A DNA stretch of 20,143 bases, taken from the IMG/VR virus record IMGVR_UViG_3300009606_000824, positions 1-20,143 of that record. One strand, given 5' to 3'. Within the stretch, counting starts at the first letter, position 1; the number at the start of each line of letters is the position of its first letter. Source of the stretch: a virus. Positions 1 through 18,300 of the stretch are shown in pieces. Under the pieces are notes generated by a model that was given only the letters and a program-made list of their open reading frames with translations, was not told the origin of the DNA and did no database searches. Both the position numbers and the translations under genes were made by a program.

Positions 1-2837
1 CCCATTCTATGTTTAATAGGACTCTTATCATGAGCTTTTAAAGCTTCAACGGCATCATTTTCACTTGCAACTCCTTTTGGAAGTAAGTCAGCAAATATAC
101 CTTTACCGAACATATCAGGCCCTCTTTCGTTAGCATCGTCTATTACTTCTGAGCCTTTAAATCTGTGGTCTGTAAACTCTTTTAATATTTCATTTTTAGA
201 CTTTTTCTTTAAATCTATAGCTGCTTGTCTAACTTTTAACCTTGAGATTTCTTTTGCAAATCCTTTTGGATTTTCATCCTCTAATTTTTTTATCTCTTTT
301 GCTATATCCTTATCTGCAACCATATTTTCAGCTAAAGTAGATTTGAATACGTCAATGGAAACTTTTCTTTTCTTTCCTTTAAGTTCATATTCTACAAAAT
401 CCTTTGAGCCTGGTTTTTTAATATAGTCGGTTATTTTTACATCTACAGGTTCTTTTTGGTTCTTAACTGCATTGTATTTTTTTATAGCTACTACTTTACC
501 AATCTTCATTGATAAATCTTCATTTAATCCATCAAACTTTCTTTGTTTAAGAGCTGCCATGATAGCATAAACAGCATCTTGCTCTTCATACCCATATCTT
601 TTAGCCATTGCTTTAATAAAGCGATCTACTGATTTAGATACTTCTGGGTTAAGTGATTCATTAACATTTTCATACATATCATCATCGCCAAAATAGAATC
701 CTAAATTTTCTAACTCTTCATTATCGTACTCTTGAGATAGCTTTTGTTGAAAGTCTCTAATACTTCCTATCCATTCCATTATCACTTCAACACATCCAGG
801 ATTATCATCTATAAACTCATCAAAGCCTTGTCTGTATCCTAGTGCTCCAAATATTTCATCTAAATCTCTAGCAGCATATTCGTTTAACATATCTCCAGGT
901 TCAGTATACTGTGATCCTGTACCTGCTACTTTATTATCTAAATGCTTTTCTAATTGTTTCTTTTGATCGTTGAGTTTTTTAAGCATCTCTACAGCTGCTT
1001 TTTTTACTTGTTCATCTCCAGTTGACTTATACTTATCTAGATTAGTTTTTATCTGTGCTTTTACTTGATCTAATCCTTTAGATATTTTTGCAATTGATTC
1101 TTCTTTTACCGACTCTTTATAGTAGTCTGGATCCTCATAGTAATCGTCTTCTTCTCTTCTACGTTTAGCATAATCAGTATCCTCTCCGTCCGTATAAGCA
1201 TCATACCTATCTTCGTCGCTTTGAGCTGCATTAAGCATATCATTTAAGTCATAATCCTTTTCTAATGCTGGATTCTTCAAAGTAACTGCATTTGGTAAAT
1301 CATCTCCCCTACCGATATGTAGTTCAAAATCATCTCCTTCTATATACTTTTTCTGTAAATGATCAACTACTTGTTGAATCATATCAAGATCATATCCAAA
1401 TGTTACTAACTGGTTATCTCCTTCATTTACCTTACCTACTGCTGTATCATAATCCATAGGCTTATTATATATAGATGCTGCTTTTTCAATGGCATTATCA
1501 ATCTTATTTAATTGATCTCCGTACATATCTGCTACCGGACCTCCTGTAGATTCGATATCTGGATCGTTTTCCATTTCTCTCTCTACTTGTGCTCTTTTAA
1601 TTTTCAACTTACGAACAATCTCTCTTGCTTTTTGTTCTTTTCTTTCTGCACTAGCTTGTGCTCTTACAGCAGCTTTTCCTTCAGGGGATTTACTGTAAGC
1701 ATCTAGCTTTTTAAAGTCTGCGTTTCTTTTTTTAGCAACTCTCATTTTCATGAGGACTGGGTCATTAAAATTAGTAGCTTCATCCATATCTGCTGAATGA
1801 TCTGCTAATTCAATATCGTTAGCTCTTAAATCCATTACTACATCGTAAACGAATGCTTGTGGATCTTCGTCTGGTTCTTGATAAAATTCTGAATCTGGGT
1901 TTTCTGAGTCATCATACATGTCGTCAAAACCATCTTCATGTTTAAATATAAAGTAGATAATAACATTACCGTTTCCGTCATTGTCGACAACCTCCATCTT
2001 AACATAAGTTGGGTCTACGTTTTGATCTAAGATAGCCATAGCTTTCTTATAATCGTGTGCTTTTACTTTAATATAGTGGTGATCGTCTCCTTCACCTTCT
2101 CCTAATGGACGTCCTTCGTCGTCATACCCTACTCCATGATCTTCTTCATCGTCTTTTTGTTCTTGATCTGGGTCATAGTCTTCGCTTAGAGATTTAAAGT
2201 GTTTTAGTAGTTCATTTGACAGTACATCCACGTTAACGATTGCCTCTCCCGAAGGTTTAACACCAACTTCTACTAGTTCTTTATCGAATGAAAAATCTAC
2301 TAGGTGTAACGAGTCTTCTTTAATATAAAAAGAAAATTCATCATCACCATGTCCTTTTTCTGCTCTTGCTCCTTTATATTCAACGTACACATCAAAGCTA
2401 TTTTCTTCTATTCTATGAGCTTTAATTCTTGCTATTTCGTCTCCTAATTTTTTAAGTGTTAGTATTAGAGCTTTTCCAACTGATTTTGCTATTGCTTTTG
2501 TTTCGTCGGTGGAGAATTTAATACCTTCAGTTTCTTTAAGTGATTTCCCTTTGGCAGTATCAATTCCAGTTATAGCCGGGTCTTTTTTTAAGTCCATTGC
2601 TGTCTTCATATCCATCTTTACTGCTTTTGTATCACCACCTTTTGTAGAAACAAACATGGTCTCCTCTTCTTTAATAATTTTATTCATTTTTGTTAAAATT
2701 GATTCTTTTATAGAAGTTAGTTCTATTATTGACTTTGAGGAAAAAGATGGGTCTAATGAGTCTGAGCTTTTGCTCCCTAAGGCTTTTAGGGTAGCTTCGA
2801 CTTGAGTTAAACGATTTTTTAGTTCATCGTACGTCAT
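1..2837 (-). CDS. Very large acidic phage protein, C-terminus beyond window
   Basis: An uninterrupted reading frame starts at the ATG at 2837 and runs off the left edge without a stop, giving 945 visible residues. I do not recognise a named family. The N-terminus (residues about 1-55) is helical and polar, beginning MTYDELKNRL. A beta-rich charged part follows, then an acidic stretch rich in Asp and Glu near residues 225-345. A long, highly charged, probably coiled-coil segment spans about 355-430. A second acidic cluster with a Tyr/Asp/Glu run lies near 545-575, with further Lys/Glu-rich helices to the visible end. There are no membrane segments or signal peptide, and Cys is almost absent. 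The size, the alternating acidic and coiled-coil segments and the lack of an obvious enzyme motif suggest a structural, scaffold-like or internal virion protein, but that is inference. The leader before the ATG is A/C-rich with no Shine-Dalgarno. Confidence 0.8.
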   Translation of the reverse strand, partial: MTYDELKNRLTQVEATLKALGSKSSDSLDPSFSSKSIIELTSIKESILTKMNKIIKEEETMFVSTKGGDTKAVKMDMKTAMDLKKDPAITGIDTAKGKSLKETEGIKFSTDETKAIAKSVGKALILTLKKLGDEIARIKAHRIEENSFDVYVEYKGARAEKGHGDDEFSFYIKEDSLHLVDFSFDKELVEVGVKPSGEAIVNVDVLSNELLKHFKSLSEDYDPDQEQKDDEEDHGVGYDDEGRPLGEGEGDDHHYIKVKAHDYKKAMAILDQNVDPTYVKMEVVDNDGNGNVIIYFIFKHEDGFDDMYDDSENPDSEFYQEPDEDPQAFVYDVVMDLRANDIELADHSADMDEATNFNDPVLMKMRVAKKRNADFKKLDAYSKSPEGKAAVRAQASAERKEQKAREIVRKLKIKRAQVEREMENDPDIESTGGPVADMYGDQLNKIDNAIEKAASIYNKPMDYDTAVGKVNEGDNQLVTFGYDLDMIQQVVDHLQKKYIEGDDFELHIGRGDDLPNAVTLKNPALEKDYDLNDMLNAAQSDEDRYDAYTDGEDTDYAKRRREEDDYYEDPDYYKESVKEESIAKISKGLDQVKAQIKTNLDKYKSTGDEQVKKAAVEMLKKLNDQKKQLEKHLDNKVAGTGSQYTEPGDMLNEYAARDLDEIFGALGYRQGFDEFIDDNPGCVEVIMEWIGSIRDFQQKLSQEYDNEELENLGFYFGDDDMYENVNESLNPEVSKSVDRFIKAMAKRYGYEEQDAVYAIMAALKQRKFDGLNEDLSMKIGKVVAIKKYNAVKNQKEPVDVKITDYIKKPGSKDFVEYELKGKKRKVSIDVFKSTLAENMVADKDIAKEIKKLEDENPKGFAKEISRLKVRQAAIDLKKKSKNEILKEFTDHRFKGSEVIDDANERGPDMFGKGIFADLLPKGVASENDAVEALKAHDKSPIKHRM

Positions 2838-3508: not shown

Positions 3509-3705
3509 TAACAGTGATAATTTATATAACGTTGTAATGCTTTCGCATAGTGAGTGCCTTTATTTTTTAATCCTGATTTTGCTTTTCTAACTTTAGAACA
3601 AGATAGTTTACCTAAGCGTTTTTTAAGAATGCCAGGCTTGACCGGGTCATGAGGACCTTCTTCTAGTACCTCTTTTATAATTTTAGTTAATTCAGACTTC
3701 TTCAT
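3508..3705 (-). CDS. Small basic helical protein, 65 aa
   Basis: A 65-residue Lys-rich protein. The first 15 residues (MKKSELTKIIKEVLEE) form an amphipathic helix of the kind that recurs at the N-termini of several proteins here. The rest contains K-P-G-I-L-K-K-R-L-G followed by a Ser-Cys-Ser-Lys-Val-Arg segment and a basic C-terminal helix ending H-Y-A-K-A-L-Q-R-Y. From memory, similar short proteins with this K-R-L-G...Y-A-K-A-L-Q-R-Y signature occur in marine T4-like phages, but I cannot name a function. It could bind DNA or sit inside the head, given its charge. The start overlaps the end of the upstream 66-aa gene by 14 bases. Confidence 0.75.
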   Translation of the reverse strand: MKKSELTKIIKEVLEEGPHDPVKPGILKKRLGKLSCSKVRKAKSGLKNKGTHYAKALQRYINYHC

Positions 3706-3893: not shown

Positions 3894-4619
3894 CTATTTC
3901 TTTTTCCATATTTCACCTCTTCTACAACGAACAACTGCCCCGGAGGCGTATGCTGATGGCCAGGTGTCATATTTTGATTTTGCTAATCTAGTACACCTAT
4001 CATCTTTTTCCATGATAGTATTTTCATTAGTAGTTTCGTGTACCATTCCTACTACTAAGTTTCTTAGGTCCTCTTTTGTAACACCTTCTTTAGTTTTCTC
4101 TAAAGATGTACCTGCTTTCTTAGCATCTTTATATGCATTAGAATTTTTATGAGATGATTTCTTACCTGCTTTTTTCTTAGCATTAATGTTAGCCCAAAGG
4201 CCTTCTTTCTTTACTAATGATTTTTCTAAATCTTTTAGTTTTTGAACTAAAAAAGGTACATTCCCTCCATCATTTGGATCATCTATTCTTGCTTTTAATC
4301 TATCAATTGTTTGTTGAATAGTTTCTTCCTTATGGTATTTAGATTCTTTCTTTACTGTTGCTTTTTTAGTATTTTTCACGACTGTCTTTCCTTTACTACC
4401 TGCTTTCTTTTTCTTTGCTGCAGTAGCGGCTCTTTGACCTTTTGTTAAACTTTGTGCTTTTGCTTTTGGTAAGCACCTATCGGGATTTTTCTTATTCTTA
4501 GAAGTTCCGCAATCGCCAGCTATATTACCAGAAGAAGAGATGCGTACCCACTTCTCTTTTTTAAACCAATCTCTTAATGACTCTTTTACAACTTGCTTTA
4601 TATTTGCTGGTACTTTCAT
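3894..4619 (-). CDS. Lys-rich two-domain protein, probable internal virion or DNA-associated protein
   Basis: A 241-residue, very basic protein with two compact Cys-containing modules joined by a Lys/Ala-rich linker. The N-terminal module (about 18-72) has W-V-R-I-S-S-S-G-N-I-A-G-D-C-G-T then N-P-D-R-C-L-P-K-A-K-A-Q-S-L and a Lys tail, a pattern I associate with uncharacterised phage DUF families. Residues about 95-140 are helical. The C-terminal module (about 205-241) reads D-R-C-T-R-L-A-K-S-K-Y then W-P-S-A-Y-A-S-G-A-V-V-R-C-R, another small domain seen in phages and giant viruses. The first residues resemble the amphipathic start helices of nearby genes. Its ATG overlaps the upstream stop by one base (TAATG). 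Function unknown; packing against DNA in the head is inference from its charge. Confidence 0.8.
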   Translation of the reverse strand: MKVPANIKQVVKESLRDWFKKEKWVRISSSGNIAGDCGTSKNKKNPDRCLPKAKAQSLTKGQRAATAAKKKKAGSKGKTVVKNTKKATVKKESKYHKEETIQQTIDRLKARIDDPNDGGNVPFLVQKLKDLEKSLVKKEGLWANINAKKKAGKKSSHKNSNAYKDAKKAGTSLEKTKEGVTKEDLRNLVVGMVHETTNENTIMEKDDRCTRLAKSKYDTWPSAYASGAVVRCRRGEIWKKK

Positions 4620-5016: not shown

Positions 5017-5589
5017 CTAATCCAACTTACTTTTAAGGTAAGTGAGATATTCTTGAAATTTCTCAGTAAATTTTTTACTTTCCAGTGTTTTATTAATCTT
5101 CCAATCCTCAATATCTCCTTGCTCAGTAACAAAAGAGGTATCGCTGTTAATTGACTCTGAGAATTGTTGTTCTAGTTCTTTAATAAAAAATTTCAAGTTA
5201 CCCTTACGAGCATGTCTAATATACTCTTCGTACTTACCGTTTTTTCTGAGCTCTGCTTCATAGTCAATAACACAGTCAAAACACATTTTATTTACTTTAT
5301 AAACTTTTTTATCTAAATGATGAGAAAGTGGCTTTCCACATTTTGGGCAAACTAAAGGTAGTTGGGTTGCTTTTTTTGCCGCATCTAATTTAGTAACATT
5401 TTGCTTAAGTCCGTTTTTAACGGTCCACTTTTTCCCACCTTCTTCCCAAATGTCTCCTTCTTTATATTCACCGGTAGTTTTTCTGTACCCTGTTTGAGAT
5501 TTTGTTTTAGTGGTAAAATCCTTTCTAACTAGATTTCGAATTCTTTCTACGTCTGAATGTTTAAACTCCTTTTTAAGGTGGTTACTCAT
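5017..5589 (-). CDS. Zinc-ribbon protein of unknown function, 190 aa
   Basis: A 190-residue soluble protein. The N-terminal part has a conserved-looking helix (H-S-D-V-E-R-I-R-N-L-V, residues 11-21) followed by T-G-Y and a G-D-I-W-E-E-G-G-K-K-W-T-V-K-N-G segment (about 45-60) that looks like a beta hairpin. A four-Cys zinc ribbon follows: C81-x2-C84 and C103-x2-C106. The C-terminal third is helical. I recall similar proteins with this hairpin-plus-ribbon layout in marine T4-like phages, without an assigned function. DNA binding or a transcription-accessory role would be typical for a ribbon but is inference. The start overlaps the end of the upstream HAD gene by 8 bases. Confidence 0.8.
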   Translation of the reverse strand: MSNHLKKEFKHSDVERIRNLVRKDFTTKTKSQTGYRKTTGEYKEGDIWEEGGKKWTVKNGLKQNVTKLDAAKKATQLPLVCPKCGKPLSHHLDKKVYKVNKMCFDCVIDYEAELRKNGKYEEYIRHARKGNLKFFIKELEQQFSESINSDTSFVTEQGDIEDWKINKTLESKKFTEKFQEYLTYLKSKLD

Positions 5590-6172
5590 ATCCTAATTCT
5601 TTTAATCCTTGGATTGCTTCTGATATATTTCCGTATTTAACTCTAAAAGCTATACCTCCTGCAGCTCTCCATTCGTTTATATTTGATTTTTTGTCATCTA
5701 TAAGTATACTAGTTTCATTAGCATATCTTTGTTTATCTGCTGAATAAGCAAATATTACTCTAGGTTTTGGGTTAAGATGATTCTTAGCCCATAATTGTTT
5801 ACCTAATCTAGAACTGTTATCTCTAGAAGGAGATGTTAGAAGTTCAGGATTATATTTTTTAATAAAGTCCCAAAGTACTTTACCTTGAGGCATCCAGTCC
5901 ATTCCTGCCCAAAACCCTACTCCAACTGTTTGATCTATAAACTTCCAAAACTCAGAAGCACCAAAGATCTTTTCAAAGTCTTTAGGTTTTACTACTTTTT
6001 CAATATCTCTAAGTGGGTAGTGTTCTTTACCTACGGTATTTAACTTATCATGGAAACGTTTTTCAAAGTCTGTTAATACTCCGTCCATATCACAATAAAT
6101 TTTGTACTGTGGTTTATTTTCTTGCTCAGGAAGCGGATATGCTTCTAATAAATCTACTATACTTTTACTCAT
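5582..6172 (-). CDS. HAD-family phosphatase, 5'(3')-deoxyribonucleotidase-like
   Basis: A 196-residue HAD-superfamily hydrolase. Motif I is D28-M-D30-G-V-L-T-D, giving the nucleophile and acid/base aspartates. Motif II is the L-T-S-P-S segment near residue 113, a Lys follows near residue 144 (S-A-D-K-Q-R), and motif IV is L-I-D-D-K-K-S-N near 157-164. Size and layout match the NT5C-type deoxyribonucleotidases often carried by large phages, where they would dephosphorylate nucleoside monophosphates. Protein or other small phosphate substrates are possible. The first ten residues (M-S-K-S-I-V-D-L-L-E, then Ala) are a weaker match to the shared N-terminal tag and lie about 15 residues ahead of the first HAD strand. 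AAAGG lies just before the ATG, and the gene has its own upstream gap with a promoter-like motif. Confidence 0.85.
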   Translation of the reverse strand: MSKSIVDLLEAYPLPEQENKPQYKIYCDMDGVLTDFEKRFHDKLNTVGKEHYPLRDIEKVVKPKDFEKIFGASEFWKFIDQTVGVGFWAGMDWMPQGKVLWDFIKKYNPELLTSPSRDNSSRLGKQLWAKNHLNPKPRVIFAYSADKQRYANETSILIDDKKSNINEWRAAGGIAFRVKYGNISEAIQGLKELGYE

Positions 6173-6241: not shown

Positions 6242-7540
6242 TTAGTTTTTTAAAGTATCTTCCCAATTTCTGAATGTTATATTTCCTAGTAAGTAAGCTT
6301 CTTTTTCTAACTCAAGTAATTTATCGTCTGCTGTCGTATCTTGTGTCTGAATATTGTGAAGGGTGCCTTGTAGGTTTTGCATATGATGAATCATTTCATG
6401 TGAGTAAGATCTAACTATATCTTTATCGTGTCTATTGGAGATATATAGTACTATTTCTTTTTTATTTGGATCATAGTAAGCTGTTCTACCAAAAAAGTTG
6501 GTTGCATTAGCTTCATCTTTTCTAACAGTAACCTCAGGTAGTGGTTGAATATCCATTCCTTGATCAATCATATACTCAGTTAATGATGAAATATAATCTT
6601 TTAATTCAAGTTTAGTGCCTACGTTTTCATTTATATCTTCATAACCCAAAACCAAATGATTGCCATTGTGTTTTATATAAGTAGAAGAAGGAACAAGTCT
6701 AGAAATATAATTATATAAGTTATCAATAGTACCTTTTTCAGCACTTGGTATTTTATCTACGTTTCTAGTCTCTGTTACTTGTTCGTTATCATGTCCACAT
6801 TTATGACATATGTAAAGATCATCTCCTCCATCTACTATATTCCAACTCCATCCACAATTGTCGCATTTAATTTTTTCATATGTTACTTCTTCATCAACGT
6901 TAAAGTACTGTTCAACAAATCCTTCAAGGTTGGAACTTAATATTTCTGCTACTATTTTATCTTTTAGGTCGGTTAGTACATTTAAGATTTCTTCTCTAGA
7001 AAGTTCTACAGGGAAAAAATCAGAAATAGTATCTAAGTTTCCTGATAATATTGAATTTCTAAAGTCGGTTGCTCTAGTAGTTGAATCAGGAGCTGCAGCT
7101 AGTGCTAATCCCTGTACGTTAGGTGCATTTTTATATGTAGTTACTCTTCTTAAATCTACAAAATCTTTATCTCCTCTTATTCCTGTTACGGAAACAAATT
7201 CTAATTCAGGATTTGCTTGTGCATAATCTTTAGCTGCAAACATTGGGTTTGATCCTCCATCTAATATTTCAACATTACCTAAATATTTGGAGTATATATT
7301 CCATATAGACATCGACTCATCCTTAGTAATACCGTTTCTCTCACCTGCTCCAACGAAAACTAATACTTTATCTATCTTAGGTTTTTTGTTACTTCTACCT
7401 TTAAGAAGTTCTGCTCCGGTTTCTTTGTAATTATCTTTATTGTATATGGAACCATTGTAGGTATTATCTAATAATGATTTAACTACATTGAAATGTCCTC
7501 TATGAGGTGGTTTATATGCTCCTGGATATAATGCTATCAT
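6242..7540 (-). CDS. Fusion: nucleotidyltransferase, zinc ribbon and HExxH metallopeptidase-like domain
   Basis: A 432-residue protein with three recognisable parts. Residues 1-175 are an HxGH nucleotidyltransferase of the NMNAT/NadR/cytidylyltransferase type: Y-P-G-A-Y-K-P-P-H13-R-G-H16 at the N-terminus and a late S-T-T-R segment (153-156) corresponding to the family's second signature. Residues 226-250 form a zinc ribbon (C226-x2-C229, C245-x2-C248, then H250). Near the C-terminus is H381-E382-M-I-H385-H, the HExxH zinc-peptidase motif, with an E-K-E-A-Y segment (411-415) able to supply a third ligand. The first domain probably makes a dinucleotide such as NAD from a mononucleotide and NTP, but its substrate cannot be read here. 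The ATG overlaps the kinase stop as ATGA, so the two are coupled. Confidence 0.85.
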   Translation of the reverse strand: MIALYPGAYKPPHRGHFNVVKSLLDNTYNGSIYNKDNYKETGAELLKGRSNKKPKIDKVLVFVGAGERNGITKDESMSIWNIYSKYLGNVEILDGGSNPMFAAKDYAQANPELEFVSVTGIRGDKDFVDLRRVTTYKNAPNVQGLALAAAPDSTTRATDFRNSILSGNLDTISDFFPVELSREEILNVLTDLKDKIVAEILSSNLEGFVEQYFNVDEEVTYEKIKCDNCGWSWNIVDGGDDLYICHKCGHDNEQVTETRNVDKIPSAEKGTIDNLYNYISRLVPSSTYIKHNGNHLVLGYEDINENVGTKLELKDYISSLTEYMIDQGMDIQPLPEVTVRKDEANATNFFGRTAYYDPNKKEIVLYISNRHDKDIVRSYSHEMIHHMQNLQGTLHNIQTQDTTADDKLLELEKEAYLLGNITFRNWEDTLKN

Positions 7541-8478
7541 GCTAAAAATGCTTGTACTTTAGAATCTATATCTCCTACTTCGGAGTGTTTTAGTTTTTCT
7601 TGAAAAGTTGGATTGTATATCATATCCAGAATGTTATCTAAGACTGCGTCTGCATCTTGACTTCTTTTTAGAGAAGAATCTTTGTATTTTTTTACTGCAT
7701 CTCTAAGTTTATCTTGACCTGGTCCAACTCCGTTCTTCCTAAATGCTTTTAAAAATGCGCTTTTGATTGCTTTATCTTCTGATCTATTATCTTTATCCCA
7801 GGCTACACTTCCAACGTGTTTAATAAACTCTGTTTCTTCTTCCTTACTCATCTCTACCGGTTTAAAGAATGATGATCCTCCTATATTATTTTTTTCGTTA
7901 TAGTCCTTTAAAAATTCTTTTACCCCACTAAGTCCTTTCTGTGCTGCTTTATTAAACCCTTCGATTTCTTTATTAAATTTACCTCCTCTATCTGATACAA
8001 AGATTGATAAGTTACCTTTTAATTTTTGATTATACTCTTCTATCTTCTGGTAAATGTTTCTCCATGTTGAAAAAACTGCATCTGCTGGGATATTCCTTTC
8101 TCTTCCTTGAAAATTAGCGATATAAGAAATCATAGGGTGTGCGTAGACCATAACCATGTATACGTCGTAACCTATACCTAGCATAGTTTCTAATTGCTTT
8201 TCAAACCTTTTACCAGAAGCAGTAGTATCCCATACTAAACTAGTTCTTTTGTCTGCTGCTGCTGCTACGTCTTTGGCTACTTGGTTGGCTGCTGGTCCTA
8301 GTTTGTTGTAATACGGGTGGTCTTTGTCCTCCACGTACTTGTCCGGGTTGAATTGTTCTAGGCTGTCTAGTCCTAACTGGTTGAGTAGGTATGTTTTGCC
8401 TGACCCTGCTCCTCCCGCCATTATTACTGCTTTCGGGGCGGACGAATCCTCTAGGATTATTGTTGATAGTTTTATCAT
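7537..8478 (-). CDS. Zeta-toxin-like P-loop kinase
   Basis: A 313-residue P-loop kinase. Walker A is G22-G-A-G-S-G-K28-T29. N-P-D-K-Y (about 44-48) and the V-W-D84-T-T strand correspond to the acceptor-binding and Walker B regions of zeta-toxin-type kinases. An Arg-rich G-R-E-R-N-I-P segment followed by W-R-N-I (about 125-142) matches the arginine-bearing lid. Zeta toxins phosphorylate UDP-N-acetylglucosamine; phage relatives may act on other substrates such as nucleotides or proteins. The C-terminal 110 residues are helical and unrecognised. I chose the ATG at 8478, not the internal Met at residue 20, because the first ten residues (M-I-K-L-S-T-I-I-L-E) match a tag on other proteins here. 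Its first 239 bases overlap the upstream lipoprotein gene in another frame. Confidence 0.85.
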   Translation of the reverse strand: MIKLSTIILEDSSAPKAVIMAGGAGSGKTYLLNQLGLDSLEQFNPDKYVEDKDHPYYNKLGPAANQVAKDVAAAADKRTSLVWDTTASGKRFEKQLETMLGIGYDVYMVMVYAHPMISYIANFQGRERNIPADAVFSTWRNIYQKIEEYNQKLKGNLSIFVSDRGGKFNKEIEGFNKAAQKGLSGVKEFLKDYNEKNNIGGSSFFKPVEMSKEEETEFIKHVGSVAWDKDNRSEDKAIKSAFLKAFRKNGVGPGQDKLRDAVKKYKDSSLKRSQDADAVLDNILDMIYNPTFQEKLKHSEVGDIDSKVQAFLA

Positions 8479-9085
8479 TTCTACTGTTATTTATTCTTCG
8501 CTTCTTTACTTTTACTATTTGAGTTGTTGATGTTCTTTGGTTGACTCTTCTACTTGAAGTGTTTATGTTAGAACTTCTACGTCCATTAATATACGCTGTT
8601 CTACCTCTTCTATTATAATTAGGATAATAGTTCCAATTGTTCCACCCATAGTAGTTATTCCAACCGTAGTTATTCCAACCGTAGTTATTCCAACCGTAGT
8701 TATTGTACCCCCATCTATCGTAACCAAATGGTGACCATCTATGAGGTGTTATACCCCATGCCCAATCATTCCACATTTGAGTTCTATTCCAATATGGACT
8801 GTATCCAAATCCGTAATATGGATTATACCTGTTATACCTGTTACCTAGAATACGATTATTCCAATCAAATGATCTAGGTTGACTAAGAGCGTATTGAGCA
8901 AAATCAAATCTAAAGTTAAAATCTGTTCTGAGTAACCGTTGAAGTTCGAATTCATTATTTATTACTACTATTTCTGCGTCTGATCCTTCTATACTGTAGA
9001 TAGGGTCGTGATTTAAAGTACTAACTTGGAAAGTAGCACATCCTGTTAATGTTAATGTTAGTAGTAAAAATAATACTTTCTTCAT
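8240..9085 (-). CDS. Predicted lipoprotein with Tyr/Asn/Trp-rich repeats and a basic tail
   Basis: A 281-residue protein starting with a lipoprotein signal peptide: M-K-K, a hydrophobic run of Leu/Val/Thr, and the lipobox L-T-G-C16, so mature lipidation at Cys16 is expected in the host envelope. Residues 20-75 contain a globular-looking part (S-T-L-N-H-D-P-I-Y, D-F-N-F-R-F-D-F-A-Q-Y-A-L). Residues 80-160 are Tyr/Asn/Trp/Gly-rich with repeated Y-G-W-N-N, and 160-281 are disordered, rich in Arg, Ser, Gln and Pro. I recall related phage lipoproteins in marine metagenomes, with no proven function; superinfection exclusion or surface modification would be typical guesses. The last 79 codons overlap the P-loop kinase gene in a different frame. 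Confidence 0.75.
   Translation of the reverse strand: MKKVLFLLLTLTLTGCATFQVSTLNHDPIYSIEGSDAEIVVINNEFELQRLLRTDFNFRFDFAQYALSQPRSFDWNNRILGNRYNRYNPYYGFGYSPYWNRTQMWNDWAWGITPHRWSPFGYDRWGYNNYGWNNYGWNNYGWNNYYGWNNWNYYPNYNRRGRTAYINGRRSSNINTSSRRVNQRTSTTQIVKVKKRRINNSRNDKTINNNPRGFVRPESSNNGGRSRVRQNIPTQPVRTRQPRTIQPGQVRGGQRPPVLQQTRTSSQPSSQRRSSSSRQKN
8651..8710 (-). repeat. 15-base tandem repeat encoding Asn-Asn-Tyr-Gly-Trp
   Basis: On the plus strand the unit GTAGTTATTCCAACC occurs three times perfectly in tandem (8651-8665, 8666-8680, 8681-8695), with a diverged fourth unit at 8696-8710. It is in frame and encodes the Y-G-W-N-N repeats of the lipoprotein. Being a multiple of three, it can gain or lose copies by slippage without breaking the frame. 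Confidence 0.9.
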
Positions 9086-9088
9086 ATA

Positions 9089-9871
9089 CTATAGTTTTAA
9101 AGTTGTAGGGTAACTATTATAAATAGGTTCCGTATTAGGGTTCTCTAATGAATACAGCTTGTAAATCATTTTAAACAGTTCAAAGTTCTCTTCTATTTCA
9201 TCTATTTGTAACACTTTCCATCCTTTTCCTTGTATTACGTTTTTTTGTTTTGATGGACCTCTAGAGTGAGCCTTTAACCATATTATACCCGTACGTTCAA
9301 TTTTTATCCCTTTAGCTTCTTCTAATCCTTTTGCGTAAGCTGATAGTTGTAAGTCGAAAGACTTATGAACTGAGTTTGATGTTTTAATATCTAGTAACCA
9401 TATTTGTCCGTGCATTTTTACAACTAGATCTGCTGTACCTGCATATTTATGTTCGTCTGACCAGACAAAATCTTCAGCAGATATTAATTCCGGCTTATGT
9501 GTTCTCCAGAAGTCAGCAAATTTTAAGATCATTTCCCAAACTATTTGAGAGTATTTTGCATTACCGTAATCATCCATCCAGGTAACTTCTTTACCTAACA
9601 CTAACTGTTCACATGCTTCATGTACCTGTGTACCTTGTTTTCCTGCTCGTCTCATGATAAGATCGGCGTTATGCCCAACATCCTTAAGCCAAGACTCAAA
9701 GAATTTATTTTTGGGCATATATTGAAGTATAGTTGTTACGGACGGGTAATATACTCCTTCACCTCTCTTGTAGACCCTGCGGTCTAAAAAATTTATTTGC
9801 TTTAACTCAGGGTTAAAGTTCAATCTTTTCTTTTCATTCTGTTCTAGAATGTTCATGCCTTGTTTTATCAT
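9089..9871 (-). CDS. PD-(D/E)XK exonuclease, RecB/Cas4-like
   Basis: A 260-residue RecB-family nuclease. Residues 80-84 hold G-T-Q-V-H84, where the family's conserved His lies. G-T-A-D148 is the first metal-binding aspartate, L-L-D161-I-K163-T-S is the (D/E)xK motif, and Q175-L-S-A-Y179 is the family's downstream motif. Together these are the active-site set of RecB/Cas4-type exonucleases, which process DNA ends with Mg2+. No four-Cys iron-sulfur cluster of the Cas4 type is visible. It probably acts in phage DNA replication, recombination or degradation of host DNA. Its ATG overlaps the primase stop as ATGA, so both should be made together; a second in-frame Met at residue 6 is an alternative start. 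Confidence 0.9.
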   Translation of the reverse strand: MIKQGMNILEQNEKKRLNFNPELKQINFLDRRVYKRGEGVYYPSVTTILQYMPKNKFFESWLKDVGHNADLIMRRAGKQGTQVHEACEQLVLGKEVTWMDDYGNAKYSQIVWEMILKFADFWRTHKPELISAEDFVWSDEHKYAGTADLVVKMHGQIWLLDIKTSNSVHKSFDLQLSAYAKGLEEAKGIKIERTGIIWLKAHSRGPSKQKNVIQGKGWKVLQIDEIEENFELFKMIYKLYSLENPNTEPIYNSYPTTLKL

Positions 9872-10791
9872 AAATCTAATTTTTGCAACATTATTTTACT
9901 AAAATCTAGTTCTGTTGCGTTCTGTACTAGTTTGGTAAATTCTTTAAATCCCAATTCAGAAGGGTCTTTACCTGGTAGTTCAATTAAGTAAACTCTAAAT
10001 CCTGCTGCTATAAATTTTTCAGATATTTTTAGAGCTGCGTCATGTGCATCTTCATCTAATGCTATATAGATGTCAGTTAGACGACTTGATAGTATCTTTT
10101 TCCAAAGAGATGAGGGTATGTTTTTACCTAATATTGGAATTGCATTACGTTTAATTGCTACAGCATCAAATACACCTTCGCATAATATAATTGGTGCATT
10201 CCAATTGATAAAGTTTTCGTAGAATATTATGTCTTTGGATACTTCGGGATTTTTATACTTATAGAAGTTTCCGTCATAACTTCTTGCAACAAAGTAATTG
10301 AGTGTACCGGATTCAGTATAACTCGGGAATATAACTCTTCCTCCATATTCTCCAGTTGTGCAGTATCCAACACTATATTTAATAAAATCATTGTCGGTAA
10401 ATCCTCTGTCATATAAGTATTTTCTTACTAAGTTTGCTACTACTGATGTTTTAGAAGCGGAATACAGCAATTGATATTCTTTCGGAAGTTCTACAATTGC
10501 GAGCTCTTTGTATTTTATCTGAGCTCCTTTAGGTATATATTTTAATATCTCTTGAGCAATTGCTTTGGGAGTAGCTAGTTGTTTAAGCAGAGAATATATA
10601 GTTCTTCCTCTCGTTTGACATACCCAGCATTCCCAAAAGTTCTTACCTTCTTCATTAGTAGCCATGTTTATTTCTAATTTAGGCTTTCTATGATTGCAAA
10701 AAGGACAGTGAAAAGCATGGTTATCTCTTGATTTTTTATGAGATTTTCCCAGGATATTTTCAATAGAGCCAAGTAAAAAAGTATAATCCAT
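9868..10791 (-). CDS. DNA primase, zinc finger plus TOPRIM (T4 gp61-type)
   Basis: A 307-residue DnaG-type primase close in size to T4 gp61. The zinc-binding domain has C29-P-F-C32 with H34 and C55-W-V-C58. The TOPRIM catalytic domain shows L-C-E205-G-V-F-D-A as the glutamate motif and A-L-D246-E-D248 as the DxD motif, followed by P-G-K-D-P-S-E. A segment G-R-V-I-F-P-S-Y (about 151-158) is the usual strand before TOPRIM. It would make RNA primers for lagging-strand synthesis with a replicative helicase encoded elsewhere. There is no helicase domain fused. The gene is followed immediately by the nuclease gene (ATGA overlap) and has a 44-base gap downstream of the mini-kinase gene. Confidence 0.92.
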   Translation of the reverse strand: MDYTFLLGSIENILGKSHKKSRDNHAFHCPFCNHRKPKLEINMATNEEGKNFWECWVCQTRGRTIYSLLKQLATPKAIAQEILKYIPKGAQIKYKELAIVELPKEYQLLYSASKTSVVANLVRKYLYDRGFTDNDFIKYSVGYCTTGEYGGRVIFPSYTESGTLNYFVARSYDGNFYKYKNPEVSKDIIFYENFINWNAPIILCEGVFDAVAIKRNAIPILGKNIPSSLWKKILSSRLTDIYIALDEDAHDAALKISEKFIAAGFRVYLIELPGKDPSELGFKEFTKLVQNATELDFSKIMLQKLDL

Positions 10792-10835
10792 GTAGTTGTC
10801 CGTAACTATTATCTTATAATATAAGAAAAATAATT

Positions 10836-11264
10836 CTAAATATCAACTAATTTTAAATGATTTTTTTGATTAACCATAATATTTGATGGTCTAATATCTA
10901 ATTCTTCTTTGTCTATACCTATTCTTGTGGATTCTTTTTCTAATGCTTCAATCCACTCTTCTGGTATCTCTCCTTTAAACTCTCCTAAAACTTCCATTTG
11001 AATTATACCTAGCTTAGGATTTATAACTTCTACATCATATATTCTAGCAAAGTTATTTGTTTTCTTTCCTTTAAGAATAACAGCGTGTTCTAATTCTACT
11101 TCGTCTGTTGTTGCTTTATATACTCTACCGTTTAATAGGTATGCTGATCCGTAATCTCCTGAGCCTAGGTATTTTGCGCCTTTATCTCTTAGTTGATCTG
11201 TCACTTTTTCAAATGCTGGATTGTATTCTAGTATTTCACCAAGTATAACTCTTGATAGTTTCAT
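10836..11264 (-). CDS. Minimal protein-kinase-like protein, 142 aa, tagged N-terminus
   Basis: A 142-residue protein with the order of motifs of a protein-kinase fold in very short form. These are a glycine-rich loop G34-S-G36-D-Y-G39-S-A-Y, V-Y-K50 as the ATP-binding lysine, E57 or E59 as the helix-C glutamate, a hinge-like M90-E91-V-L, a catalytic-loop match L-D123-I-R-P-S-N128-I-M, and L-K-L-V-D141-I as the DFG-type aspartate. The protein ends one residue after that aspartate, so the activation segment and the lower C-lobe helices are absent. Arg replaces the usual catalytic-loop Lys. It could be a small active kinase, an ATP-binding regulator or a pseudokinase. The N-terminus (M-K-L-S-R-V-I-L-G-E) carries the shared tag. 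The 5-base spacing to the upstream gene indicates one operon. Confidence 0.8.
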   Translation of the reverse strand: MKLSRVILGEILEYNPAFEKVTDQLRDKGAKYLGSGDYGSAYLLNGRVYKATTDEVELEHAVILKGKKTNNFARIYDVEVINPKLGIIQMEVLGEFKGEIPEEWIEALEKESTRIGIDKEELDIRPSNIMVNQKNHLKLVDI

Positions 11265-11269
11265 TATTA

Positions 11270-11617
11270 TTAACTTTGTTTTTTATTAAAATTAAAATTA
11301 ACAGTTGGGTACCACTCTCTTTCTCCTGGTTCCACATCATAGTAGTTACTGTCCTGTGTAATTTCTAAACCTTTGCTTTTTATAAACCCTGTTATTTTAT
11401 TCCACTCGTCTTCTTCGAATTCACTTTTAATTCTAAAGGTAACTTTACCGTGTGCTTTTCCCTTTAATGGGTCGTTATCTTCTCGTCCGTCAGAGTAGTC
11501 TCCCATACTTACATAAGGACTTCCTCCAAATTTACTGTTTAATTCTTTTGCAAGAGAGTCTGATTCTTTATCGTACTTGTTAAAGTCCACTTCTAAAAGT
11601 ATATCTGTTAGTTTCAT
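11270..11617 (-). CDS. Hypothetical protein, 115 aa, tagged N-terminus
   Basis: I do not recognise this protein. It has 115 residues, is acidic and appears as a small alpha/beta domain: a helix around residues 15-30, a V-T-F-R-I strand near 60, a helix with E-E-D-E-W-N-K-I-T-G-F-I-K-S-K-G (about 68-83) and a final strand W-Y-P-T-V-N-F-N-F. The beta-helix-beta order could be a ferredoxin-like fold. Its first eight residues (M-K-L-T-D-I-L-L) are identical to those of the Cys-rich gene at 13478, down to 18 identical bases, followed by E9, which would be the (L)-x-E cut site. It overlaps the upstream cupin-like gene as ATGA. Confidence 0.8.
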   Translation of the reverse strand: MKLTDILLEVDFNKYDKESDSLAKELNSKFGGSPYVSMGDYSDGREDNDPLKGKAHGKVTFRIKSEFEEDEWNKITGFIKSKGLEITQDSNYYDVEPGEREWYPTVNFNFNKKQS

Positions 11618-11877
11618 AATTTATAAATTTTTACTTTAAGATCTCCTGTCCCTTTAATTAATCGGTGATAAGTCTCTTTAGGTATAAATAGTTTATTTTC
11701 TGATAATCTTTGAGGTATTTCATTGTCAAATTGAAATTGCCAATCAGTAGGGTGGGTTGATTCTACCATTCTATCTTCTTTATCTCTATGCCAAACATAC
11801 TCAAAAGAATCGGTATCACAAGAAAACTCTCTTATTATACAACCTTGATCATTATACTCTTTATAGGGGCTATCCAT
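11614..11877 (-). CDS. Small cupin-like protein, 87 aa
   Basis: An 87-residue protein compatible with a minimal cupin (double-stranded beta helix). Y-V-W-H30-R-D-K-E34-D-R resembles cupin motif 1, which supplies metal-binding His and Glu. F-I-P-K-E-T-Y-H71-R near the C-terminus resembles motif 2 (P-x-G-x-x-H). The intervening W-Q-F-Q-F and final D-L-K-V-K-I would be strands. If so it may bind a metal or small ligand, but no substrate can be inferred and it could be a purely structural beta protein. Its start shares one base with the upstream stop (TAATG) and its own stop overlaps the next start (ATGA), so it sits inside a coupled series. Confidence 0.7.
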   Translation of the reverse strand: MDSPYKEYNDQGCIIREFSCDTDSFEYVWHRDKEDRMVESTHPTDWQFQFDNEIPQRLSENKLFIPKETYHRLIKGTGDLKVKIYKL

Positions 11878-12497
11878 TATGATGCTGTAGCAACGTGTTT
11901 AAGTATTGCGTAGTCTACGCTTGTATTCGAACTATCATATAATGTATACGAAGTATTTCCAAAACCACCAGCTGACATAAAAGATCCGGGTTCTGTGGTC
12001 CATACCCATGATCCTGCTGAGTACCCATAGGCAAAAGAACTTGCTGTTATTGTTAATGAGGAATAGGAGGCGTAATTTATACCTGATAAATACAGTTTAT
12101 ACCCTGCTGCTGAATTTGCTGCATTTATAGAGGATTGATCGGTGGATGGTGAGCTTCCTGCTTTCCACGTAACGCCTTTACATACTGAAGGACTAGATAC
12201 ACCGACAGTACAATTTTCTCCATGTATTATTAAGTACCTATGTTTATAAATACCTAAAGAACTAGTTAACCTAAAGCCTGCTGGTAGGGTCCCACCACCG
12301 GGAGTAGCTGTTTTGCCTCTAAATGGGAAACCATCTGCTGGGGTAAGTCTTGTGTGTGTTCCAGATGAACCAATTACATTGGTAGATATAGTTGAATTAC
12401 CGCTGAATCCGGAACTGTTCCTAAGTTTTGCTTCTGCAGATATTTTGTTTATATCAGAGAGTTTAATGGCTGTTTGTGGTAAAGTTACTACTCCCAT
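11877..12497 (-). CDS. Gly/Ser/Thr-rich putative virion structural protein, 206 aa
   Basis: A 206-residue protein rich in Ser, Thr, Gly, Ala and Tyr, with few charged residues, as in phage fibre, head-decoration or tail-tip proteins. The N-terminus (G-V-V-T-L-P-Q-T-A-I-K-L-S-D-I) resembles the start of phage tail-associated proteins that carry a short L-S-D-I helix. The middle and end are predicted beta-rich (Y-K-L-Y-L-S-G-I-N-Y-A-S-Y-S-S-L-T-I-T). There are two Cys (C-T-V-G-V and S-V-C-K-G) about 12 residues apart that might pair. No enzyme motif is visible. Its position downstream of the tail-fibre gene supports a virion role, but the exact location is unknown. Confidence 0.75.
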   Translation of the reverse strand: MGVVTLPQTAIKLSDINKISAEAKLRNSSGFSGNSTISTNVIGSSGTHTRLTPADGFPFRGKTATPGGGTLPAGFRLTSSLGIYKHRYLIIHGENCTVGVSSPSVCKGVTWKAGSSPSTDQSSINAANSAAGYKLYLSGINYASYSSLTITASSFAYGYSAGSWVWTTEPGSFMSAGGFGNTSYTLYDSSNTSVDYAILKHVATAS

Positions 12498-12509
12498 ATC
12501 CTATTATTC

Positions 12510-13055
12510 TTACCAGTATCCTGAGAAGTTCTTTGCTCCTCCTAGTGATTTCCAATATCGTCCTACGTTACAAGCCCAGTAACCTGGTTTTGTTTTATCT
12601 TTTTTAGTAGCACATTTATGTCTTGCAGCAAAAGAAGCTCTTGCTCCTTTCTCTTTTATCTTTACACTTAGTCCTGTTGTGCCTCCAAAAGAAACTTTAA
12701 CAACGTTGCCTTTTTTATTTTTAGTATAAACAAAGAACTTTTTAGAGCCTCCTCTTTTTGGTTTGTTTAAAGGTACATCTTTACCTTTATATTTAGCTTC
12801 ATTTATCATAGGTAAATCTAAAGGTACTTTTGCTCCTTCAAATACACCATATAGCCCTATATCTGTTGTTTCTATTAGATTTAGATCTTCTTCGTTGAGT
12901 TGTATTTTACCGTCTCTATAAGCATCTCTTGCTTCAGCAAATAATTGTATAAAGTTGGTGCTAGAATAACGGTAGACATTCTCATATAAAGAGAGTCCGT
13001 TGCTTACGTGGTACTCTAGAGATGGTAATCCTATTAGTTCTTTTATCTGTATCAT
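12510..13055 (-). CDS. Two-domain basic protein, probable internal head protein
   Basis: A 181-residue protein. Residues about 15-90 form an acidic helical domain (Y-R-Y-S-S-T-N-F-I-Q-L-F-A-E-A-R, then N-E-E-D-L-N-L-I-E-T-T-D-I-G). From residue 92 the protein is basic: K-R-G-G-S-K-K-F-F-V-Y-T-K-N-K-K-G-N-V-V-K-V-S-F-G is a likely beta hairpin. It is followed by A-R-A-S-F-A-A-R-H-K-C-A-T-K-K-D-K-T-K-P-G-Y-W-A-C-N-V-G-R-Y-W. From memory, this Arg-His-x-Cys...Tyr-Trp-x-Cys module is widespread in T4-like marine phages and associated with prohead or structural genes. The two Cys and His may bind metal. A head role is inferred from charge and family recollection. Confidence 0.8.
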   Translation of the reverse strand: MIQIKELIGLPSLEYHVSNGLSLYENVYRYSSTNFIQLFAEARDAYRDGKIQLNEEDLNLIETTDIGLYGVFEGAKVPLDLPMINEAKYKGKDVPLNKPKRGGSKKFFVYTKNKKGNVVKVSFGGTTGLSVKIKEKGARASFAARHKCATKKDKTKPGYWACNVGRYWKSLGGAKNFSGYW

Positions 13056-13058
13056 ATT

Positions 13059-13478
13059 CTATTTATTATCGTTTCGATCTTGCCACTCTTGGGAGATTTT
13101 ATCCTTATCTATTGGACCTCCTTTTGCCCATGTTCTACAGCTTCTTGCAGAATGACATTTAAAATGATGCATCCAGCAGTATCCTAATTTACCATCTTCA
13201 TCAGATGTAACACCTGGCATACATTCTTCCATTCTAGGGGATATATCAAATGCAACACAGTTGCTACAGTTAGTTCCTTTTGCTGCTTCTTCTGTAGTGT
13301 TCCAATATTTTGCTATATCTTTCCAGTAATTACCTGGCTCACTTACATTTAGTGGACCATACTGTATATGAGTTGCTTTTATTGAAGCATCTCTATTTTT
13401 TGTATTGAGTATTAAATCCTGTGTTGCAGCGGGGCAGGATTCATTATTCTCTTTTAGTAATATATCTGTTAGTTTCAT
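13059..13478 (-). CDS. Cys-rich, HiPIP-like protein with tagged N-terminus, 139 aa
   Basis: A 139-residue protein with seven Cys: C15, C71, C74, C86, C101, C108 and C114. C71-S-N-C74-V-A-F, G-Y-C101 and S-C114-R-T-W match in order the C-x2-C ... G-x-C ... C-x-x-W layout of high-potential iron-sulfur proteins, which hold one [4Fe-4S] cluster. C86 and C108 are extra. H104 and H105 lie beside C101. A zinc-binding or disulfide-stabilised fold is the main alternative. The N-terminus (M-K-L-T-D-I-L-L-K-E) is the shared tag, near-identical to the 115-aa protein's. No secretion signal is present, which argues against a simple periplasmic electron carrier. It overlaps the upstream nuclease gene as ATGA. 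Confidence 0.78.
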   Translation of the reverse strand: MKLTDILLKENNESCPAATQDLILNTKNRDASIKATHIQYGPLNVSEPGNYWKDIAKYWNTTEEAAKGTNCSNCVAFDISPRMEECMPGVTSDEDGKLGYCWMHHFKCHSARSCRTWAKGGPIDKDKISQEWQDRNDNK

Positions 13479-15006: not shown

Positions 15007-15342
15007 TTATTCTGAGCCGGTTATTGGTGTTTCTAATTCTTCTATTCTTTCCTCTAAAGCAGCTATTTTGCTAATTAAACTCTGTATACCTGCTGTATTT
15101 AGAGCAATGAAAGGTGTCTGTTCAACTGAAAGAACTTCTTCTAGGTGCCCTATTTTATTTTGCTTACTTATTAATTCCGGAAAACTTCCTGATACCTCTT
15201 GTGCGATGAATCCATAAGAATTTTTTCTTTTTTCATCTGGGTTAGCATTCATTTTCCACCTGAAGGATTTTGGGCTAAGGTTTCCGATTAAGGTAAGTGG
15301 GTCTGTTATATCTTTTATATTCTCTTTTAATCTTCTATCCGA
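15007..15342 (-). other. S74 intramolecular chaperone (self-cleaving) domain of the tail fibre
   Basis: The last 111 residues match the peptidase S74/intramolecular chaperone domain seen in endosialidase and many phage fibres: S-D-R-R-L-K-E-N-I at the start, S-F-R-W in the middle, Y-G-F-I-A-Q-E-V, and a final coiled coil (I-S-K-I-A-A-L-E-E-R-I-E-E-L-E). In this family the Ser at the start, helped by a Lys, cuts the chain just before the Ser after trimer folding, so this part would be lost from the mature virion. Confidence 0.88.
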
Positions 15343-18300
15343 TAACCCTGTTACGTTGGCTGTTAATTCTCCTGTTACTAAGGCGTTTCCGTATATATTT
15401 GCTACTCCATTGTCTGCTACTGCGCCTAAGATTACAGAACCATCTGGTCCGCTTATTTGTACTCCGTTTAGACCTGCTTTCACTTGACTTGTAAAAGTTC
15501 CAAAAGTTATGGGGGTAAAGGTTGAACTAAAAGGAGCTAAGACTACTTTAAACGTACCGCCACCTGTTCCTGTATTTATTCCTGTGTTTACACTTGAACT
15601 AAACTTAAAACTAAGTGTAACGGAAGTTGAGTGTCGGAGCTTAACTCGATAGTTACCTGATGCTTGTGACCCTAAATTGACTACTCTAGTTTGACCAAGC
15701 CAACCGTTACCAGAAGAAAACCTATCTGAGGACATCATTTGTCTAGGGGTTGCGTTGTAGTATTGAACAGTACTATTACCCACTGCCTGTAATGAACCTT
15801 TTGATACCTTAGCTACCCAGAAATCATTTATATCGCTTTCACTTAAAATGTACGTAGTGGTGTTTTTATCTACCCAAACTGAACTACCGCCAGATCCGCC
15901 TGTTTCTTCCATTTGAGTTACTACTCTAAGCGAGTGTTCATATGACGCTGAACAAGCAGTAAACTTGTCATATTGTGTGTTAGAGGTAGTGAATTGATAC
16001 TGATTATAACTTTGATTCTGAGTTAGTGTATTTCCAGTTGCAATTCGGTCATCTAGAAATACTTGTAAATCCCCTATGTAGTCAAACTCTGCTATAGGTA
16101 TTGTTATTGGTAGAGTTCCGCCGGTGTGTGCATATGTAGCACTTACGGTTTCGGTGTATGTCTTAGTTGTGGTTTTAGACTGTTGTGCAGAAGATATTGT
16201 AGTGCCGGTAAATGCTCCTCCCCAATAGGAATTATTGTTAGAGTTAGAACTACTATCTCTCCATAGCATTAATTGCCTTGTAACACCCGAATGTGATAAA
16301 TCTGCTACTCTAGTTGGTGCAATAGAAGGAAGTGTCGTTGCTGATAGTTGAATTTTTGTGTTTCCAGAAGAATCATTAATTTTAAAAGATTTATTCTGTG
16401 GGTCTAAAAATATCTGATTACCACTATCTCTCAATAAGTTTGAACCTCCAATTAACCAGTTTCCTACTCTACCTGAGGTAGCAGTTAACTGCCCTTGTGC
16501 ATTAACTTGAAATTCACCATTTGATGTACTCGTTCCTCCTAATGATATACCGTTAGTGTCTACTCTAAAATATCTAGGATCACTTATGTATGTAGATCCT
16601 ATGACTATAGTTCCTCCAGTAATAGAAGCACCGTTTAGATTACCGGCAAAGTCTCCAGTTGCTCCGGTTATACTACCTTTAAAATTAGCATTACCGTCTG
16701 TATCTATATAAAACTGTTTAGCGTGAATACTACCACCTGCTGATAATGTTATACCGCCGGCATCTGCATATCCAGATGTATCTTTAGTTTGTCCTGAATA
16801 GATCGCAGTGCTATCCATTTTCCAACCTCCAATAATACCTGTGTATATATCTTGATTTACAGGTAATACTGATAATCTTTCTACGTATATAGATCTTGTT
16901 CCATTATCGCCCCAGTTTAATATAGAAACAGAAGCATACTTTACACCTGCTGATGGTGTATATATAAATTGGTATATTTTATATTCACTGGTAAGTGGAA
17001 AGTTTTCGAAGGAATTTGTTGCGACTCCATCTATAGTTCTACCAGATATTGCTCCTTGTGAAGATTCTTCTACTACACCTGATTCACTTTGTGATGAAAC
17101 ATTTGATATTACACCTCCTGCTGCTACCGCTGCGTTTTTCTCATATATCCTAAAATAAACTCCAGCTGTAGTGTTATTACCGTCTCTTTTAGCTTTTATA
17201 AATACTTTATAGTTTTGACCAACTACCACAGGGAATGCTTGGAATCCTGCTCCTATTGAGTCGTCTGTAGCGTTATATATTCTTAGAGGTCTTGAGGTGC
17301 CGTCGGCTGCTGATCCGCTATAACTTATATTTGTAACAACATTACTGGAATAAGTTGCTTTAACTCCTGCTGGTCTGCCGTCTGGTGCTTCTATTACAAA
17401 GTTAGCATTTGGAAAGACTGAGTTTTGACCTGCTGCTGTTTGTGAAATATAGCTTGATAAATCTTCATTCCCAACTGAAAGAGTACCGCCAAAAGTACCT
17501 GTTGCTCCTGTGATATCGGCTCCTGAAAGTGAACCTTTAAATCCTGCATTACCGCTTTTATCTACATAGAACTGATTGGTATGTATTGCACCACTAGAAG
17601 ATATAATTGTTCTTCCAGTTTGTGATGTAAATGTAGATGTATCTTCATCTGTTCCTGAGAATATTTTATCTGCATGTATATTAAATCCACCAATTGTTCC
17701 AACTGTTGCTGATAATGTACCTGAGAAGGTACCGGAAGCACCTGATATGTCTCCTTTAAAGTTTGCATTACCATCTATGACAGAAAACTCCTTGCTAATT
17801 AAATTACCGGTATCTAGGTTAAATTGTGTACCAGCAGATGAATACAGTGAACCGACTCCACTAACAAAGTTGTAGTTTGTTGATTCTATCTTACCTGTGG
17901 TTACCATTTCACCTGTAATAGAAGTAACTTGCATATAATGTGCTTCTATAGCAGGGTCAGTTCTAAGAAGGAAATTAGTTAAGTTCTTAGAAGCGGATGG
18001 TATTAAATTAGATTCATCTATACCGTATGCGTTTATGTTTACTAATCTCCCACCTCTTGGGTTAGTTGCTATAAAACTATTTATTCCTTCACCTGATCCG
18101 TTTGCTATGTATACCTCGTTGGATGATGTAACTGATGTTGATGAACCTTTCAAGGTAAATGGATGAACTATTGTACCTCCACCAGGAGCTTTTTTAAGAT
18201 GGGTAATAGTGGTTCCAGCATCTGAATTAGTATTAACTATTACATTACTGTTGGATGGAATTCCTGCTAATATAGGATGTGCTGATGGTAGGCCTTGTCC

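Follow-up and report, generated by a model that had tools for sequence, protein, structure and literature searches.

A linear virus record of 20,143 bases from IMG/VR (IMGVR_UViG_3300009606_000824, analyzed over its whole length and called the window here) carries a series of minus-strand genes whose proteins have unrelated bodies but similar short N-terminal peptides (tags), which were analyzed as candidate capsid-targeting sequences (CTS) of the kind known from phage T4. The nearest named relative of the window, Flavobacterium phage immuto, comes from the Baltic Sea and has a genome of 160 kb; its T4-type genes include those for the capsid assembly protein gp20, a prohead protease, the major capsid protein gp23, and the sheath and tube. 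The immuto genes gp101–gp079 are the counterpart of the minus-strand gene order of the window and lie directly upstream of the terminase and head genes. The window belongs to a flavobacterial-type phage, and the tags are also present in related uncultured phages. The following tags and tag-like N-terminal regions lie in the window (aa, amino acids):

11591..11617, minus strand: tag MKLTDILLE of a 115-aa protein without assigned function (11270-11617), read directly
13449..13478, minus strand: tag MKLTDILLKE of a 139-aa cysteine-rich protein (13059-13478), read directly
11235..11264, minus strand: tag MKLSRVILGE of a 142-aa kinase-like protein (10836-11264), read directly
8449..8478, minus strand: tag MIKLSTIILE of a zeta-toxin-like P-loop kinase (7537-8478), read directly
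6143..6172, minus strand: tag MSKSIVDLLE of a HAD 5'(3')-deoxyribonucleotidase (5582-6172), domain matches start downstream
3658..3705, minus strand: class A tag MKKSELTKIIKEVLEE of a 65-aa protein (3508-3705), a member of the MKKSELRQIIREEIxKVLNE class
4581..4619, minus strand: probable tag MKVPANIKQVVKE of a 241-aa protein (3894-4619), PHROG 23735 match from residue 14
12798..13055, minus strand: 86-residue N-terminal region, ending MINE86, of a 181-aa protein, tagless homologues begin at the next residue

Shared N-terminal tags and their enrichment

An earlier examination of the letters (the sequence-only reading) had singled out four near-identical starts at 11617, 13478, 11264 and 8478. 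All four were confirmed on the minus strand, the first two share exactly the 18 identical bases that had been counted, and each of the four tags ends in the cleavage consensus (L/I)xE of the T4 prohead protease gp21. The weaker tag suspected on the HAD protein (6172) and the possible tag of the 65-aa protein (3705) are also genuine: homologues of the HAD protein retain an LLE- or LTE-type tag, with matches to PHROG 2643 from residue 20 and to NT5C from residue 25 in the window protein, and the 65-aa protein belongs to the very large class A described below. The tags of the window are 9–16 residues long and those of classes A and B 20–24, in agreement with the length of about 10–20 residues taken for a CTS.

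Homologues of the window proteins were drawn from 80 related contigs, and those of the kinase-like, zeta-like, HAD, 139-aa and 115-aa proteins for the most part retain a similarly shaped tag with changed letters. The 115-aa protein has 22 homologues, of which the full-length ones are tagged (MKLSTIILE, MKLTSIILE, MKLSDIILE and others), and the kinase-like protein has 58, with a tag of the same shape on the full-length ones (including MKLSRVILGE, MKLYRIISE, MKLSKIILE, MISIYNILKE, MVSILQILRE and MGLLVSLLKE). Homologues of the 139-aa cysteine-rich protein, the predicted model of which is poor (mean predicted local distance difference test score, pLDDT, of 43.5), start with MKLRDIILKE, MKLLQIIAE, MKFISILKE or MKIIKLIKDLVLE, whereas the starts of the 241-aa protein homologues vary (e.g., MNKDTLTKIVKE and MAKKKKISPDMQAFMRELIRE). 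Some homologues look N-terminally shortened, at least partly due to contig ends or to a gene caller that penalizes overlaps.

The zeta-toxin-like kinase has homologues tagged MIKLLEIIQE, MIELLSLITE and MKLTQILLE, and its Pfam Zeta_toxin match begins at residue 11. The ATG at 8478 is located 239 nt within the lipoprotein-like open reading frame (ORF; 8240-9085) that precedes it; this start was accepted because the homologues conserve the tag, and gene spacing gives no support. The two genes are abutting in one relative (G016) and apparently fused in another (L019), and a frameshift or a true overlap is therefore possible at positions 8240-8478 of the window.

A strict tag motif was defined as [LIVF][LI]xE within the first 16 residues (E at residues 8–16). 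The motif is present on 7 out of 22 window proteins (0.8 expected, 0/1000 residue shuffles) and on 14 out of 39 proteins of the 100–133 kb head/cargo block of immuto (1.6 expected). The tail regions of immuto show no enrichment (1/40, 1.1 expected), and random viral contigs carry the motif on 6 out of 383 proteins (9.9 expected). The signal is thus limited to the head/cargo block. Single 9-residue matches are easily over-read, and the likeness could in principle be one of short hydrophobic N-termini arising by chance; the counts in the window and in immuto, together with at least 120 stretches matching the DNA pattern MKL[ST]xI(I)(L)E compared with 6 for the same pattern reversed, leave this explanation a negligible probability.

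Tag classes and conservation at the protein level

The matches to the MKL[ST]xI(I)(L)E pattern fall on at least 15 body families. Class A was searched with the DNA pattern MKK[ST][EQ]LxxIIxE, which identified at least 119 stretches in viral contigs; the 140 unique proteins of at least 40 aa belong to at least 114 unrelated body families, and up to eight tagged genes are located at one locus (among the matches listed). A tag that comes back throughout the related genome and in many contigs on varying bodies, for which the sequence-only reading had proposed a scan, was thus found. The class A consensus is MKKSELRQIIKEEIxKVLNE, and conservation collapses after residue 20. [LIVM]xE is found at residues 19–21 in 55 out of 124 cases (5.6% background), and the ...LNE ending counts as support because the terminal LxE lay outside the searched pattern. 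Class B, with 28 distinct starts, reads MENTFDLKKFLVENKLTNNSRLLE. A class C match in Lactobacillus phage Bacchae (L310), which lacks the prohead protease family Peptidase_S77 (S77) and gp23, was taken as an expected chance match and rejected.

The 18 bases shared by the two closest tags would also fit a DNA element conserved for gene starts or regulation, or recombination between gene starts, with no function of the peptide itself. Among 141 class A genes, however, the upstream DNA is unconserved and the third base of the invariant Ile codons varies freely, with synonymous positions free and the amino acids fixed to residue 20, and conservation therefore acts at the protein level. In addition, the tag shape is kept in homologues even where the letters differ. 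The regulatory explanation was rejected on the codon pattern, and an origin at the DNA level is regarded as highly improbable.

The tag as an addition to independent proteins

Superoxide dismutase (SOD), the 181-aa protein and the HAD protein all exist elsewhere without a tag, which upholds the view that the bodies are independent of the tags. The SOD of G016 reads MKLSKLILENKE-FKLPALSFGYDALEPHID, with the tag directly before the enzyme domain: the Pfam domain starts at residue 12, immediately after MKLSKLILE-NKE, and the own first residues of solved SODs align to residues 12–15 of the tagged SOD in nearly all cases. In related SODs the same domain is preceded by MKIKDILFE, MKMSDILLE or KLSNIILE, and an untagged phage SOD was identified in a 70-kb contig (L428) without S77 or gp23. 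The HAD nucleotidases of two giant phages and of Caulobacter phage Cr30 lack an N-terminal extension, and the giant-phage homologues start directly at the first strand (MPQIFCDFDGV and MNTLFCDLDGV). A cut after MINE86 of the 181-aa protein, which matches PHROG 7595 from residue 85, would leave AKYKGKDVPLNKP; the tagless homologues start with MAKYKGRTVKLNKP in Pelagibacter phage HTVC111P and with MAKYQGRTVKLNKP in Pelagibacter phage Aegir. The predicted mature N-terminus of the 181-aa protein is thus the exact N-terminus of its tagless homologues, which belong to non-T4 phages.

In the predicted model of the kinase-like protein, residues 1–11 are disordered (pLDDT <50) and the body is well ordered with a protein-kinase fold. 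The sequence-only reading had listed a minimal kinase, a zeta-like kinase, an iron-sulfur-like protein and the 115-aa protein as cargo; this list holds broadly, with the minimal kinase now assigned a protein-kinase fold by structure prediction and the iron-sulfur-like assignment tentative in view of the poor model. The protein is only 142 aa long, and the catalytic Asp region DIRPSN is replaced by SIKMDN in the immuto clade, in which the Asn and the DFG-like Asp are retained. The loss of the catalytic Asp in this clade makes kinase activity uncertain, and the protein may be an atypical kinase or a pseudokinase.

Tags are also exchanged between classes on one body. The bodies of immuto gp095 (class A) and L075_7565 (class B) are 68% identical and align only past the tags, and further pairs with tags of different classes were identified at 24–41% body identity, with less certainty for the weaker pairs. 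A tag shared by unrelated bodies is a property of a T4-type CTS.

Association with the prohead protease and the capsid

The gp21-like protease gene that the sequence-only reading had suggested looking for is present in the relatives and co-occurs with the tags. S77 was found in 9 out of 23 window-like contigs and in 20 out of 30 tag contigs compared with 1 out of 20 random contigs; among contigs of at least 40 kb, the numbers are 20/29 for tag contigs and 1/11 for random contigs (Fisher p = 0.001). In immuto and the S77-positive contigs, the tags and a gp21-family protease are encoded by the same phage. The gp23 gene is present in 20 out of 20 tested S77-positive contigs and in 0 out of 9 S77-negative tag contigs; the latter therefore appear to be without the whole head block and not the protease alone. 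The major capsid protein of these phages starts with MELNQLLE or MEINQLLE, the same motif as in the tags.

Short N-terminal peptides direct proteins to tails, membranes, replication compartments or chaperones in other systems, and the tags might likewise send their proteins elsewhere, with an incidental (L/I)xE ending. This is very unlikely given that the motif is not enriched in tail genes, that the tags are linked to S77 and gp23 and the capsid protein carries the motif, and that the tag ends coincide with the starts of the mature domains. A different alternative accepts entry into the prohead via the tag but holds that the proteins are mostly core or scaffold (like T4 gp67 and gp68) or structural head proteins that are degraded or stay put and do not form an injected payload. 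Many tagged proteins are indeed small and without assigned function, their genes neighbour those for portal, protease, scaffold and capsid, the capsid protein shares their N-terminal motif, and the scaffold end RMQKLAGIIK recurs near the start of some of them. However, a scaffold role is implausible for several bodies that are ordinary soluble enzymes (Fe/Mn SOD, 5'-deoxyribonucleotidase, zeta-type P-loop kinase, kinase fold, and pterin carbinolamine dehydratase), and this alternative is considered rather unlikely.

The protein at the scaffold position ends RWQKLAGIIK or RMQKLAGIIK, and these residues recur near the N-terminus of unrelated proteins, some of them tagged (MKKQILSEQFKRMQFLAGIITES; loci L004:25626-26867 and L002:25061-25456). 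Sequences of this type were found in 10 C-terminal and 5 N-terminal cases, a weak hint that some tags might mimic scaffold contacts.

Candidate cargo polyproteins

Modules that stand alone with a tag also turn up as parts of larger proteins. The joints between modules carry [LIVM]xE in 149 out of 228 cases, which are not independent, compared with a background of 31%; counted by module family, the signal is weaker (23/35 compared with 0.33). The window contains the following examples:

3897..4007, minus strand: C-terminal module (KDDRCTRLAKSKYDTW...) of the 241-aa protein, after TIME (I-M-E), a separate tagged gene elsewhere
3..2837, minus strand: 945-aa open-ended ORF resembling a cargo polyprotein, with a module at about residue 471 (VNEGDNQLVTFGYDL) after KVNE
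6242..7540, minus strand: 432-aa cytidylyltransferase-like protein with an internal zinc-ribbon module at about residue 217, beside VDE

In immuto (gp084, ...NIIKEILSE) and in others, the C-terminal module of the 241-aa protein has a tagged gene of its own, and the module of the 945-aa ORF has a 55% identical stand-alone copy with the tag MKLSKIILE in L256. The zinc-ribbon module is separate in L277, with the tag MNYLTLAQLIGE, and in G004, with the tag MNKTSLAQLIGE. In four contigs (L047, 17860-18915; L048; L410; L411) another tagged protein is fused in front of the SOD, and the second tag MKMSDILLE (IKMSDILLE in some) persists as an internal linker.

Elsewhere in the window, an exonuclease-like protein (9089-9871) has the borderline tag MIKQGMNILE, with MIRQGTNILKE and MIQKGQNVLSE in relatives; if this tag is real, a nuclease might be present in the head. 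A 1581-aa tail protein (15007-19752) ends SDRRLKENI...YGFIAQEV, which resembles an S74-type self-cleaving chaperone.

Proposed mechanism of protein delivery

Tags that are modular, that are linked to the S77/gp23 head block and whose ends coincide with the starts of domains and homologues are, with good confidence, interpreted as propeptides that target proteins to the capsid within a head-assembly system of the T4 type. Each cargo protein would be made with an N-terminal peptide of about 9–24 residues that would dock it to the prohead core, and the prohead shell would close round core and cargo. The gp21-like Peptidase_S77 would then cut after (L/I)xE and free the mature cargo inside the head, where it would be packed with the DNA and most likely be ejected into the next host. 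Several cargo modules would be joined as polyproteins and cut at internal sites. Core docking, cutting, presence in the virion and ejection are steps that we infer; judged from the sequence comparisons, targeting and cleavage are very probable, and ejection of at least the enzyme cargo is fairly likely.

A number of points weigh against this interpretation. A minority of the tags end in VxE or MxE and not in L/I, the joints of some polyprotein modules (GLWANINAK) lack a canonical site, and the window tags share the shape, not the letters, of the T4 internal protein (IP) tag MKTYQEFIAE. T4's own IPI tag also differs from MKTYQEFIAE, and letter identity was hence not treated as defining. The hydrophobic moments of the tags are not above those of shuffles; docking by an amphipathic helix was rejected on this result, and no docking mechanism is claimed because amphipathicity is not significant. 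Furthermore, the window is a 20-kb fragment without head genes of its own, the random control is small (11 contigs of at least 40 kb), part of the tag contigs are related to each other, and virion presence and cutting are predictions from sequence.

A broader interpretation, for which we have a slight preference, is that a wide group of uncultured T4-superfamily phages may run a general protein-delivery system at infection, with interchangeable tags, polyproteins cut in the head and dozens of proteins per genome. The delivered proteins would include SOD, kinases, the nucleotidase, the pterin enzyme and many proteins without assigned function. What in T4 is a curiosity of few internal proteins would become a readable code, and sequence alone could show which phage proteins probably travel in the head and enter first, at the moment when the host's defences act. 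No function is known for most tagged proteins, to which the tag assigns a place and time of action. The tagged SOD suggests that some phages bring their own antioxidant enzyme, and the tags could act as natural labels to load foreign proteins into phage heads.

Comparison with known systems

The principle is already known from the T4 CTS, of which the first ten residues suffice for targeting, as found for the IPIII tag in fusion experiments, and residues 8 and 10 govern processing (PMC9026906). Like the window proteins, T4 IPI, IPII, IPIII and Alt carry a short N-terminal peptide on unrelated bodies, ending (L/I)xE, and the genomes related to the window encode a T4-type portal, Peptidase_S77 and gp23. 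For T4 IPIII, an exchange of the last E for D is reported to prevent cutting and leave loading intact. The analogy with T4 drawn by the sequence-only reading was supported by a positive control, in which IPII and IPIII share MKTYQEFIAE and the gp24 start MAKINELLRE is shaped like the window tags. T4-like phages of Pelagibacter and Methylophilales (L439:26129-26719, L440:14914-16866) seem to use a tag style, MKTF/MKSF/MKKFSEIIE, that looks closer to T4's MKTYQEF. The phages studied here differ from T4 in their tag sequences, of which there are at least three or four interchangeable classes, and in a far larger number of cargo families, including recognizable enzymes (SOD, pterin dehydratase, nucleotidase, zeta-type and protein-kinase folds) and polyproteins with internal sites, whereas T4 has a few internal proteins and Alt.

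A text search of open-access papers did not find the tag letters, and no paper on tags of this kind in marine phages was found in the open-access literature. The tag classes, their swapping, the enzyme cargo and the cargo polyproteins appear to go beyond the descriptions found there.

In the giant phages phiKZ and SPN3US, diverse head proteins lose propeptides to the prohead protease (PMC5694885). The likeness extends to propeptides on diverse bodies, paralogues with identical first 15 residues and internal-head ejection proteins, but the virions of these phages are far larger, and their propeptides mostly exceed 100 residues and have sites of the A/S-x-E type (PMC5694885). The tags described here are 9–24 residues long with L/I-x-E sites; the single longer region, that of the 181-aa protein, has 86 residues and ends in INE. 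The chlorovirus PBCV-1 packages a Cu/Zn SOD in its particle (PMC7019647); it is a eukaryotic virus with an unrelated packaging route, whereas the enzyme described here is a head-tagged Fe/Mn SOD of a tailed phage.

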